From positions 124,001-188,000 of the forward strand of contig NZ_CYSB01000026.1 in the NCBI RefSeq assembly GCF_001458255.1: a DNA stretch of 64,000 nt. Reading direction: 5' to 3'. The translations under genes and the position numbers were made by a program. The notes beneath the pieces are model-generated. The model saw nothing but the letters and a program-made list of their open reading frames with translations, was not told the origin of the DNA and did no database searches. This document shows positions 17,921-55,647 of the stretch, piece after piece. The first letter of the stretch is position 1, and each line of letters begins with the position of its first letter. The stretch is from Thalassovita autumnalis (GTDB taxonomy: Bacteria > Pseudomonadota > Alphaproteobacteria > Rhodobacterales > Rhodobacteraceae).

Positions 17921-18343
17921 ATGCTTACGATCCAACGTCTGGATATTGCGGACGCCCGCGTGATGATCGCCGGCGCCCGCGCCAAAGCCGAGGAGATCGG
18001 GGTGCCAATGTGCATCGCGATCACCGATGAGGGCGGCAATCTGGTGGCCTTTGAACGGATGGACGGGGGGAAAGTGACCTCCTCAACCATCGCGGTTGAT
18101 AAGGCCTTCACGGCTGCCGGTGCCAAAAAGGCGACCCATGACTATGGCGAGGTCAGCCAGCCGGGCAAACCGGCCTATGGCATCGCCTCGGCCATAGGCG
18201 GCCGCCTGATGGTGGTCGGCGGTGGCCTGCCGGTGGAGGTTGATGGCGCGGTTGTTGGCGGCATCGGCGTGTCCTCGGGCACCCCGGCGCAGGACCGTGA
18301 CGTGGCTGAGGCTGGGATCGCGGCCTTTATGGCAACGCTCTAA
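17921..18343 (+). CDS. GlcG/HbpS-family protein
   Basis: The 140-residue protein belongs to the GlcG/HbpS family, whose members bind heme or small molecules and often sit beside glycolate or glyoxylate genes. Typical stretches are VPMCIAITDEGGNLVAFERM and GGGLPVEVDGAVVGGIGVSSG. No signal peptide is present. A strong GGAGGAG site precedes the ATG, which is 23 bases after the glcB stop, so the two are co-transcribed. The exact function is not known. Confidence 0.85.
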   Translation: MLTIQRLDIADARVMIAGARAKAEEIGVPMCIAITDEGGNLVAFERMDGGKVTSSTIAVDKAFTAAGAKKATHDYGEVSQPGKPAYGIASAIGGRLMVVGGGLPVEVDGAVVGGIGVSSGTPAQDRDVAEAGIAAFMATL

Positions 18344-41024: not shown

Positions 41025-42167
41025 TTAGGCGACGCGGTTGCCCTGCACCCAGGTTCCCCGCACCACTGGTGCATCGGCGATCCGGGCCACGCGGATCAGA
41101 TCGGCCCGCTGACCAGCAGCCAGCGCACCGCGATCCTCCAGCCCCGCCGCCCGCGCCGGGGTTTTGGTGATGGTGGCAATGCCGCGCGCGGTATCGCCCC
41201 ACATATCGCCCAGCAGCAAACCCGCCGACAGCAGCGCCGCCGGCACATAGTCGGATGACACGATATCCAGCAGGTTCATTTCAGCCAGTTCACCCGCCGC
41301 CACATTGCCCGAATGTGATCCGCCACGGATCAGGTTGGGCGCCCCCATCATCACCGCGATGCCCTGATCACGGCAAGCCTGTGCGGCCTCAACTGTGGTG
41401 GGGAATTCCGCCAGGTGAATGCCCAGATCCGAGGACGTGGCAACGTGATCTGCGGTGGTATCGTCATGGCTGGCCAGAACCGCGCCGTAACGCGTGGCCT
41501 CGGCTACGGCGACGGCCTCATGACGATCGCCATTGCGTTCCCGCAGCCCCTGCAGATTGGCGACGTGATCGGCAAATTCCTCTTCGTTGAGGTTGTTCTT
41601 GCCCATCACATAGGCCTTGAGTTTGCTCAGATCACGGAACTGCCGCTGCCCCGGTGTGTGATCCATCAGGCTGACGATGCCGACGCGATCTTCGGGGCCA
41701 AACTCGGCCATTTCCTCTTCCAGCGTTTCGGAACAGACCTCTGCCCGCAGGTGCAGGTAATGGCTGATCTTCAACGCCCCGGCAGCCCGCATCGCCAGCA
41801 ACTCGCGGGCCAGATCGCGGGCATACTTACTGTAGCGGCTTTTGGAGCTGGGGATGGAGCCCACCCGCATCGCATCAAACACCGTTGTGATGCCAACGCT
41901 GGCCAGTTCAGCGTCATGGGCCACCAGCGCGGCGGCATGGGGCCAGTCGACGCCGGGGCGTGGCTGAATGTGGCGTTCAAGATTGTCGGTGTGCAGCTCA
42001 ACAAGGCCGGGGCACAACAGGTCACTGCCAAAGTCCTCGGCGCCGTCAGGCACCGATGTTCCGGGTTCAATTGCGGTGATCACACCGTCTGCCACATGCA
42101 GGGCGCCGCGGATGACCTCATCTTCCAAAACGATGTTGGCATTTGCGAAGATCTGCTCTTTTGTCAT
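41025..42167 (-). CDS. phnM: Alpha-D-ribose 1-methylphosphonate 5-triphosphate diphosphatase PhnM
   Basis: PhnM removes diphosphate from the C-P lyase intermediate ribose 1-methylphosphonate 5-triphosphate. The 380-residue amidohydrolase has the metal motif HTDNLERH (59-66), the signature SLMDHTPGQRQF near 166-177, and SHDDTTADHV. These are the classical PhnM features. AAGGTAACGGA precedes the ATG at 42167, and a longer reading from 42194 is not used. It is the last gene of the - strand phn set, separated from phnN by the opposite-strand DUF1045 gene. A second, divergent PhnM is at 49443. Confidence 0.94.
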   Translation of the reverse strand: MTKEQIFANANIVLEDEVIRGALHVADGVITAIEPGTSVPDGAEDFGSDLLCPGLVELHTDNLERHIQPRPGVDWPHAAALVAHDAELASVGITTVFDAMRVGSIPSSKSRYSKYARDLARELLAMRAAGALKISHYLHLRAEVCSETLEEEMAEFGPEDRVGIVSLMDHTPGQRQFRDLSKLKAYVMGKNNLNEEEFADHVANLQGLRERNGDRHEAVAVAEATRYGAVLASHDDTTADHVATSSDLGIHLAEFPTTVEAAQACRDQGIAVMMGAPNLIRGGSHSGNVAAGELAEMNLLDIVSSDYVPAALLSAGLLLGDMWGDTARGIATITKTPARAAGLEDRGALAAGQRADLIRVARIADAPVVRGTWVQGNRVA

Positions 42168-49338: not shown

Positions 49339-49442
49339 AGCAACGTTAGAAAACGCGCATTTTTTCTGCCAACTGCGGGCCTGTCACCTCGCCGACACAG
49401 AAGCGGCGTAGGGAAGGGGCAAACCCAGCATGAGGCAGGCAG

Positions 49443-50627
49443 ATGCTTAATCAGCTCCCCCCTTTGCGTCTGACCGGCGCGACCGTTCTGCGGGACGGTG
49501 AACTGCAAGACCGTTCCGTTGCCATCGAAAACGGACGGTTTACCAAGGGCCCGCATCCTGCGGTGGACCTGTCGGGCTATTACATCTTGCCGGGGATCAT
49601 TGACCTGCATGGCGACGCCTTTGAACGCCACATCGCCCCGCGCCCTTCGGCGCCGTTTCCGATTGCCACCGGGCTGCGGATGACCGACCGCGATGCGGCG
49701 GCAAACGGGGTGACCACCGCTTGGCTGGCACAAAGCTGGTCCTGGGAGGGTGGCATGCGCAGCCCGGGTTTTACCGAGGAGGTGCTGGACACGCTGGTGC
49801 GCTACCGCGCCGAATCATTGACCGACCTGCGCCTGCAAATCCGTTATGAAACCCATATGATCGACAGCGGTGATCAGTTGCTGGCGGCGATCCGGCGCTA
49901 CGGCGTCGACTATGTGGTGTTCAACAACCACCTGGACGAAGCGCTGATCGGCGCTGAAACCAACCCGGCAATGATTGCGCAATGGGCAGCCCGCAATGGC
50001 CGCACCGCACGGGAACATCTGCGCATCGTGGAGGAGGCCAATGCCCGATCCACCGAGGTGCCGCGCCACCTGTGCCGGCTGGCTGAGGCATTTGATACTC
50101 TCGGCGTGATCTACGGATCGCACGATGATGAAAGCGCTGAACAGCGCGAACACTACGCAATGATCGGCGCGCGGATCTGTGAATTCCCCACCAAACGGCC
50201 ACCGGCAGCTGCCGCTTCGGCGATGGGGGATCCGGTTTTGCTAGGGGCGCCGAATGTTGTGCGTGGCGGGTCGCAGGCGGGCAATATTTCAGCAACGCAG
50301 CTGATCCGCGAAGGGCTGTGTGATGCGCTGGTTTCTGATTACTTTTACCCGGCGCTGTCTCAGGCCGCTTTTGCGCTTGTGGATCAGGGCGTGCTGACCC
50401 TGCCAGCCGCCTGGGCGCTGATTTCAGAACGGCCCGCCGACATTCTGCGGCTGGCAGATCGTGGTGTGATTGCCCCCGGCAAGCGGGCCGATCTGGTGGT
50501 GGTGCATAAGGAAAGCCGCGCCGTGGAGGCAACCATCAGCGATGGCCGCTTGTCCTTCCTAGCGGGAGAGGCGGCGCAGCGGTTTGTGAAACTGCAGGCT
50601 GGTAATGTGCCCCTCGCGGCAGAGTGA
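49443..50627 (+). CDS. Second, divergent PhnM-family amidohydrolase
   Basis: The 394-residue protein is a clear PhnM relative with the amidohydrolase layout, HGDAFERHI at 56-64, SHDDES at 226-231 and GAPNVVRGGSQAGNISA. It differs from the first PhnM. HTDN is HGDA here, and the SLMDHTPGQRQ signature is missing, with VFNNHLDEAL at 159-168 in its place. It may act on another ribose-linked or phosphonate intermediate. It follows phnF by 104 bases on the + strand and has AGGCAGGCAG before the ATG. Confidence 0.85.
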   Translation: MLNQLPPLRLTGATVLRDGELQDRSVAIENGRFTKGPHPAVDLSGYYILPGIIDLHGDAFERHIAPRPSAPFPIATGLRMTDRDAAANGVTTAWLAQSWSWEGGMRSPGFTEEVLDTLVRYRAESLTDLRLQIRYETHMIDSGDQLLAAIRRYGVDYVVFNNHLDEALIGAETNPAMIAQWAARNGRTAREHLRIVEEANARSTEVPRHLCRLAEAFDTLGVIYGSHDDESAEQREHYAMIGARICEFPTKRPPAAAASAMGDPVLLGAPNVVRGGSQAGNISATQLIREGLCDALVSDYFYPALSQAAFALVDQGVLTLPAAWALISERPADILRLADRGVIAPGKRADLVVVHKESRAVEATISDGRLSFLAGEAAQRFVKLQAGNVPLAAE

Positions 50628-50654: not shown

Positions 50655-50683
50655 CTGTCATTCAGCGGTCACGCAACTGTCAA
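50655..50683 (+). promoter_or_regulatory. Three-unit Pho box
   Basis: CTGTCAT (50655-50661), CGGTCAC (50666-50672) and CTGTCAA (50677-50683) are direct repeats spaced exactly 11 bases apart with 4-base linkers. This is the layout of PhoB-binding Pho boxes (consensus CTGTCAT). It begins 28 bases after the second phnM stop. A weak -10 (TAGGGT, 50694-50699) lies 10 bases after the last unit. No protein gene follows on this strand, so the likely target is a short RNA. Confidence 0.75.
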
Positions 50684-50704
50684 AGATCGCTGCTAGGGTC
50701 ACCT

Positions 50705-50807
50705 CAAGGGACGTATCAAGCGCCCTTTTTCAATAGGTAACTCTTTTCCATTATCCCCAATTTGAGACCCTGTCTTGCGGCCCCTCCCCCAGGGGCCGCA
50801 TTTTTTT
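50705..50807 (+). ncRNA. Candidate phosphate-starvation small RNA
   Basis: A transcript from the Pho box promoter would begin near 50705 and end at the terminator near 50807, about 100 bases. The first part forms a hairpin (AAGGG, one bulged A, CG at 50706-50713 with CGCCCTT at 50721-50727, loop TATCAAG) followed by five T residues. A long unpaired pyrimidine-rich middle (about 50739-50757, CTCTTTTCCATTATCCCC) follows, then the terminator hairpin. This hairpin, open seed, terminator layout is typical of trans-acting small RNAs. There is no open reading frame. Expression is not shown. Confidence 0.55.
50777..50807 (+). terminator. Strong terminator downstream of the Pho box
   Basis: GCGGCCCCT (50777-50785) pairs with AGGGGCCGC (50791-50799) over 9 bp with a five-C loop, followed by A and TTTTTTT. 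It is directional for the + strand. It would end both the second phnM transcript and the small RNA. Confidence 0.92.
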
Positions 50808-50829: not shown

Positions 50830-51447
50830 TTACGCTTCGTATTTTTCCAAAAACGCCTCAGCCGGCATCGCGCGGAAATCGGGCAGGGCGTCCTTCAGGC
50901 GGGTATGATCCCAGTCCCACCAGGCCAGGGCGATAATGCGCTCAGCCAGCGCTTCGGGAAACCGGCGGCGCAATGGCTTGGCGGTGACGCCTGCGACGAT
51001 GGTGTAGGGCGCAACATCCTTGGTCACCACTGTGCCTGAGGCGACAATGGCGCCGTGGCCAATGGCGATCTCAGGCTTAATCTGGGCGTTGTGGCCGATC
51101 CAGACATCATGCCCGATCCGCACCCGCCGTGCAGCACGAGCAGCAAAAAATGCCTCATCCACGCCAGCCTCATCCCAATAGTCATCAGAGCGATAGAGGA
51201 AATGGTGCATGCTGGCAGTGTGCATCGGATGGTCGGTGGCCCCGATCCGCACATAGCTGGCGATATTGGCAAACTTGCCGACATCGGCATTGGCCACATC
51301 CGCGTAACGATCACAGTAGGAATAATCGCCAAAATCCGCGTTCTGTACGCGGCTGCCTTTGCCAACCTCGCAGTAGCGGCCAAAACTGGCGTTTTTCAGT
51401 TCAACATCGGGATGCAGGAACGGGGCGTCCGCAGTCAGCCGGGGCAT
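50830..51447 (-). CDS. Hexapeptide-repeat acetyltransferase of the phosphonate locus
   Basis: This 205-residue left-handed beta-helix protein has imperfect hexapeptide repeats (ASFGRYCEVGKGSRVQNADFGDYSY, IGHDVWIGHNAQIKPEIAIGHGAIVASGTVVTKD in part). It resembles the DapH/DapD/GlmU-related transferases that regularly accompany phn genes. It may acetylate aminophosphonates, as PhnO does in E. coli, although PhnO has another fold. It follows phnE2 by 84 bases with a paired hairpin between them. Confidence 0.8.
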   Translation of the reverse strand: MPRLTADAPFLHPDVELKNASFGRYCEVGKGSRVQNADFGDYSYCDRYADVANADVGKFANIASYVRIGATDHPMHTASMHHFLYRSDDYWDEAGVDEAFFAARAARRVRIGHDVWIGHNAQIKPEIAIGHGAIVASGTVVTKDVAPYTIVAGVTAKPLRRRFPEALAERIIALAWWDWDHTRLKDALPDFRAMPAEAFLEKYEA

Positions 51448-55618: not shown

Positions 55619-55647
55619 TTGACAAATCGATTAAAGTTTTGTGACGC
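55619..55647 (-). promoter_or_regulatory. Degenerate Pho box upstream of phnC
   Basis: Read on the - strand: GCGTCAC, CTTTAAT and TTGTCAA, each spaced by 11 bases (+ strand units at 55641-55647, 55630-55636 and 55619-55625). They match the CTGTCAT consensus at 4, 5 and 5 of 7 positions. The spacing is exact, but individual matches are weak and the -10 is poor. Confidence 0.4.

Follow-up and report, generated by a model that had tools for sequence, protein, structure and literature searches.

A phosphonate-cluster gap with a promoter, hairpin and terminator

In the 64-kb stretch of DNA analysed here (the window), 202 bases separate a phnM-like gene from a convergent acetyltransferase gene, and we find that this gap is filled by a promoter, a hairpin and a terminator. 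The features are, in order:

49443-50627, plus strand: phnM-like gene, upstream of the putative RNA gene (profile-tested)
50655-50661, 50666-50672 and 50677-50683, plus strand: three-unit Pho box CTGTCAT, CGGTCAC, CTGTCAA with an 11-base period (direct reading)
50684-50693, plus strand: 10-base spacer from the last Pho unit to the -10 element (direct reading)
50694-50699, plus strand: -10 element TAGGGT (direct reading and promoter score)
50706-50727, plus strand: 5' hairpin (fold prediction)
50728-50775, plus strand: pyrimidine-rich, weakly structured middle (fold prediction)
50776-50807, plus strand: intrinsic terminator, a hairpin at 50776-50800 followed by seven T, ending at 50807 (terminator scan and fold)
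50830-51447, minus strand: convergent phosphonate-cluster acetyltransferase, TIGR03308 (profile-tested)

A first-pass annotation, made from the letters alone, had placed this element between C-P lyase and transporter genes, and the gene assignments agree: phnM, PhnF and the acetyltransferase were covered by profile search, and the remaining phn genes were named from their translations. Direct reading of 50655-50683 confirms the three repeats 11 bases apart that it had described, and the -10-like TAGGGT that it had noted shortly before the hairpin is found at 50694-50699. From the position of the -10 element, transcription is predicted to start near 50706. As had also been claimed, no protein gene lies in front of the Pho box; downstream comes the convergent acetyltransferase gene, which ends on the opposite strand 23 bases beyond the terminator, and the predicted transcript holds no ATG. 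A small protein encoded in the RNA was considered and rejected, given the missing ATG and the absence, by reading, of a conserved-looking frame after the GTG that is conserved in relatives. The terminator at 50776-50807 is also placed to end read-through from phnM. A further PhoB-type site lies between phnF and phnM at 49381-49414 on the plus strand (CTGTCAC, CCGACAC, 10 nt, TAGGGA), so that phnM may possess its own Pho promoter, in which case read-through from phnM could share the 3' end of the RNA.

The site has the makings of a promoter dependent on PhoB: two or more units resembling CTGTCAT at an 11-base period, a -10 element at the proper distance (10 nt) from the last unit, and a PhoB-like regulator (response regulator plus Trans_reg_C) encoded after pst/phoU-like genes, pst and phoU being names given from translations. 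In the same genome a Pho box precedes pstS, and hfq is present. The first-pass annotation had called this the best Pho box of the window, and it does rank first in two scores. The score for two units, 10 nt and a -10 element is highest here on both strands (19.1, with the next non-overlapping site reaching 17.1 at 42161), and the three-unit score is 27.1, compared with 20.7 at the runner-up at 55647 on the minus strand. This second-best three-unit site (55647-55603, minus strand) lies upstream of phnC. A degenerate pattern drawn from the Pho box has its sole match in the 64 kb, at up to three mismatches, at this site (0.02 expected). Across the 4.36-Mb genome, the RNA promoter is the sole zero-mismatch match to the three-unit pattern, which is a ranking rather than an independent test because the pattern was drawn from the same site; at up to two mismatches there are 24 matches versus 9 for the reversed control.

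The stretch from 50705 to 50807 is predicted to fold at -35.1 kcal/mol (z = -5.07), and none of 200 shuffles folds as well. A large share of this predicted stability is that of the terminator, whose stem-loop (50776-50800) has 10 pairs, 8 of them G-C. The earlier picture of a stretch of about 100 bases with a hairpin, an open middle and a terminator therefore holds for the hairpin at 50706-50727 and the terminator to 50807, but the middle is less open than described, with 8 predicted pairs inside 50733-50773.

Promoter and sequence constraint in relatives

We sampled the 80 best of 531 phnM relatives together with 30 loci of 102 matching genomes; the loci were ranked by similarity to phnM and hence are not a random sample. 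Keeping only loci with a convergent acetyltransferase, and each of them once, leaves 60 distinct loci; among those excluded for lack of it are the motif-bearing L028, L040 and L107. In these 60 loci the gap is at most 35 nt long in 24, 71-86 nt in 4 and at least 129 nt in 32 (one of 83 nt, in L006, seems overestimated, direct reading giving about 25 nt). Two Pho units followed by 10 nt and a -10 element are found on the phnM strand at p < 0.05, relative to dinucleotide shuffles, in 22 of the 32 long gaps, and by the same test the PhoB-type promoter is absent from that strand in the other 10; on the opposite strand, 6 of the 32 reach p < 0.05. The combined p over the long-gap loci is about 6e-25 on the phnM strand versus about 6e-5 on the other, values that are not strict probabilities because the score weights and the spacer were chosen after the sequences had been read and because the loci are related. 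When random flanking windows replace the shuffles, the promoter is again found in 22 of 32 long gaps, with one locus exchanged, and the best mean spacer among lengths of 6 to 15 is 10 over the same 32 loci. A terminator 36-120 nt past the -10 element was assigned in 18 of the 22 promoter-bearing loci (values transferred by hand); in L021, L061, L062 and L091 the scan picked none or another place.

In L009, L016, L060 and L034, phnM is followed by a Pho-like site and then by a gene whose protein seems to bear a signal peptide, and the L009 protein is weakly similar to glycerophosphodiester phosphodiesterases (30.7 bits, relative to a cut-off of 254).

Within the genus, five of the eight genomes with an orthologous phnM (that of the window included) carry the element and three have a short gap; the RNA element is optional at this level. 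Two congeners, L085 and L004, retain two Pho units, the 10-base spacer and the -10 element (p = 0.003 each, the lowest value that 300 shuffles allow). Both keep the 5' hairpin and the terminator; of the Pho box, the first unit is weak or absent in them. The fifth carrier, L005/L169, is looser. The first-pass annotation had asked whether the Pho box and hairpins are conserved in close relatives, and on this test its proposal was not refuted.

Sequence divergence points in the same direction. Between the window species and its sister species, whose phnM proteins are 99% identical, 1 of 108 sites differs in the RNA (50700-50807), a change in the hairpin loop, compared with 55 of the 337 fourfold sites in the genes on either side (p = 1e-6); since the remaining 94 sites of the gap also show few changes (3), this constraint need not be confined to the RNA. 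With gap columns set aside, the RNA is less divergent than fourfold sites in two of three further pairs (15/115 versus 53/212, p = 0.007; 22/91 versus 87/212, p = 0.003). A Roseovarius pair displays no overall constraint (28/111 in the RNA versus 47/216 at fourfold sites). In Roseovarius L076 and L037, a stretch ahead of the terminator (TTTCAATNACGAAACACAGGGTG) is almost the same in both, although elsewhere the RNA has diverged.

Covariation in the hairpins had been proposed as a further check, and the 5' hairpin of ten relatives that carry a GTGAGTG motif covaries by most but not all measures. It is 76% paired (2 of 500 shuffles are as high), it has 8 double-change cells (reached by 7 of 500), its covariation score is reached by 4 of 500, and it outdoes all six slid versions of itself, but the count of pairs with double changes, at 4, is ordinary (88 of 500). 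The tested structure was drawn from the same ten sequences, so the test favours it. In L085 and L004, a common loop AGUGAGUG is carried on stems that differ by compensatory changes.

Related candidate RNAs, mostly beside phosphonate genes

Common to several relatives are GUGAGUGUGACCGC(G/A) at the 5' end, the motif UUUCA-N-N-ACCAAA and a terminator of the GGGCGG type, and we modelled the relatives' RNA in two covariance models, R1 and R2. Across 295 genomes, R1 found copies in G225 (45 bits) and G093 (34.9 bits) though both lay outside the model; the latter sits after phnM. At E <= 0.01, R1 has matches in 75 of the 295 genomes, and most of the low-scoring ones among 30 loci inspected resemble generic GC-rich terminators (not counted). 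Elsewhere in the genome of the window, R1 gives two weak matches (29.9 and 26.0 bits), and in the window itself a weak match at 18300 (15.3 bits). R2 at E <= 1e-4 matches 9 of 394 genomes, namely its six training members plus G323, G061 and G104, these three at only 35-41 bits; G061 and G104 had belonged to R1 and were first found by a 3' motif search.

By reading, Pho units, 10 nt and a -10 element lie upstream of the copies in G104, G061 and G323, the outer unit being weak in G061. The G104 copy follows a phnM-like gene, and those in G061 and G323 follow a phosphonate gene of the DUF1045/TIGR03223 type and are convergent to rpsD, a name given from translation (the TIGR03223 score of the G061 neighbour, 233.6, is just below the cut-off of 248.95). 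This arrangement, with a DUF1045 phosphonate-type gene before the RNA and rpsD convergent to it, is seen in two genomes, at L222:540-648 and L286:1501-1615, and is a second shared location of the RNA. The G225 copy (L232:1426-1608) has an AlkZ-like gene on one side and rpsD on the other, and its promoter is sigma-70-like, TTGCGA-18-TATAAT, without a Pho box; here the same RNA is apparently under other control. From these neighbours, the phosphonate link of the RNA family holds in two contexts with one exception. The first-pass annotation had spoken of an orphan short transcript, which is not quite apt, since most relatives in which the RNA gene was found have it next to phosphonate genes.

The motif GTGAGTGWGACCGCG at up to one mismatch matches 78 of 198 genomes, and we rejected it as a genome-wide marker because reversed-control matches are also common (not totalled), so that single matches mean little; two exact matches away from phnM seem, by reading, to fall in coding sequence. 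A two-motif pattern matches 18 of 394 genomes, with 4 recognised as phnM-linked. The 3' motif pattern matches 48 of 149, including the phnM-linked G028, G033, G047 and G089; among five further places read, G104 and G061 belong to the family and G049, G053 and G096 appear coding.

The RNA of the window stands apart from the modelled sequences. R1 has no match at its site at E up to 5, and the five loci of the genus yield none for R2 at E up to 10. Given 20 other phnM loci, R2 matches the element on the right strand in 8 at E up to 1, so the modelled family is narrower than the set of promoter-bearing long gaps. In sequence and structure, the window RNA and its congeners fall outside the R1/R2 family; in layout (a phosphonate gene ahead of the RNA, then a PhoB-type promoter, a 5' hairpin and a terminator) they agree with it. 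Since the models miss the window RNA, its kinship with the family rests on place, promoter and layout, and it could be an orthologue that has diverged fast, or else a distinct RNA behind the same promoter.

Searches against Rfam gave no match at the gathering threshold in the 64-kb window or in 14 relatives' loci, and resemblances to RybB and ncS025 were discarded as far below threshold. We also looked for pairing partners. In five genomes, the sequence complementary to the 5' end conserved in the relatives occurs 27 times; six of these places are RNA loci or exact matches, and two, in G225, lie at or just past a start codon. Among the 27 (genes not named), no target place was seen to recur between genomes. 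For 20 start regions, duplex scores relative to letter shuffles gave a smallest p of 0.015 (phnJ), not significant for 20 tests.

A proposed Pho-regulon RNA and its known counterparts

We think it probable that the gap holds a stand-alone small RNA (sRNA) gene of the Pho regulon. At the level of sequence comparison, the promoter architecture, the place, the hairpin, the terminator and the low divergence of the RNA speak for such a gene. In low phosphate, phosphorylated PhoB would bind the three 11-base units at 50655-50683 and recruit RNA polymerase at the -10 element ten bases downstream; we infer both this dependence on PhoB and the transcript itself from the architecture together with established PhoB biology. 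The product would be an RNA of about 100 nt that opens with a hairpin at its 5' end, stays mostly unpaired in the middle and closes with an intrinsic terminator. It would represent, in this genus, an RNA gene found repeatedly next to phosphonate genes within the family. Judging from its class, it would most likely pair in trans with mRNAs, aided by Hfq, so that phosphorus starvation would also retune other genes post-transcriptionally; the help of Hfq, the pairing in trans and the targets are the most tentative parts of this proposal. The first-pass annotation had offered the element as a candidate phosphate-starvation sRNA, and the promoter in 22 of 32 long gaps and the low divergence of the RNA lend that suggestion support, making the predicted RNA a good candidate regulator of phosphorus stress.

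Other explanations of the same gap deserve consideration. The RNA might chiefly be the 3' end of the phnM mRNA, with any short RNA a processing product to which the Pho box adds little. The terminator is indeed downstream of phnM on the same strand, and the PhoB-type site upstream of phnM at 49381 would lead one to expect read-through; yet 22 of the 32 long gaps after phnM hold a promoter with conserved spacing ahead of the hairpin, and further copies follow a different phosphonate gene, and we regard this explanation as unlikely. Alternatively, a protein gene under Pho control may once have stood here, with the gap as what is left of it; this is suggested by the four loci in which a Pho-like site and then a protein gene follow phnM, and by the weak glycerophosphodiester phosphodiesterase likeness in L009 (30.7 versus 254 bits). 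A decaying remnant, however, sits poorly with 1 changed site in 108 where fourfold sites show 55 in 337, with hairpin covariation in relatives and with an intact terminator, and we give it very little credence.

The promoter could instead yield an antisense RNA running past the terminator into the acetyltransferase gene, or merely interfere with transcription of that gene, which ends on the opposite strand just 23 bases beyond; the strength of the terminator and the existence of copies convergent to an unrelated gene (rpsD) make this most improbable. Many E. coli PhoB sites, though intragenic ones, are reported to be transcriptionally inert in the available part of one study (PMC10294691), and PhoB might likewise bind here to no noteworthy effect. 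The present site is intergenic, has a -10 element at conserved spacing and is followed by a terminator, and we consider that outcome the faintest of prospects.

Should the proposed sRNA gene prove real, a common marine family would also answer phosphate starvation post-transcriptionally, through an arm of the response set inside its phosphonate cluster. The recurrence of the RNA across genera is material for target prediction. RyhB is an iron-sparing sRNA. A bolder idea, which we hold to be possible but rather doubtful, is that an undescribed, phn-carried RNA family, under the control of PhoB, forms the RNA arm of the Pho regulon in Rhodobacteraceae and represses phosphorus-costly functions genome-wide while C-P lyase is induced, as a phosphorus counterpart of RyhB. 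Marine phosphonate use has been tied to phosphorus limitation and to a proposed marine source of methane, according to the portion of the source available (PMC3840354).

Previous reports touch on such an RNA from several sides. We found no description of it in the open-licence literature; a Ruegeria pomeroyi survey deals with carbon and nitrogen limitation, and its main text, in the part available, has no word beginning with phn or PhoB (PMC4809877). The best named Rfam resemblance is to suhB/MmgR (RF00519), on the plus strand, and membership is rejected at 17.2 bits relative to a gathering threshold of 41. In promoters of the phoA type, the -10 element lies about 10 bases past the last Pho unit. 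The promoter of the window resembles PhoB-dependent promoters of the pstS and phoA type in its 7-base units, its 11-base period and a last unit that replaces the -35 element, and differs from them in preceding a non-coding RNA rather than a protein gene. Of 33 predicted S. meliloti boxes for which starts had been mapped, 16 lay 22-25 nt upstream of the start in the section of the report available (PMC3616915); in the window, the last unit ends 23 nt before the predicted start. Phosphate-responsive sRNAs are known in that species, as a partly available source states (PMC8829014). As far as the accessible text of another report goes, S. meliloti sRNAs raised by phosphate starvation have no evident PhoB site, and other candidates, such as sm14 and sm25, do have predicted ones (PMC2573895). 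The latter are alike in being intergenic RNAs with a predicted PhoB site and a terminator; they belong to another bacterial order, and no phosphonate context is seen for them in that text (PMC2573895). The sRNA132 of Haloferax volcanii is similar in being linked to phosphate starvation, as the accessible part of its description has it (PMC6560208), but it is archaeal and has no PhoB. The RNA predicted in the window is well supported by comparison.
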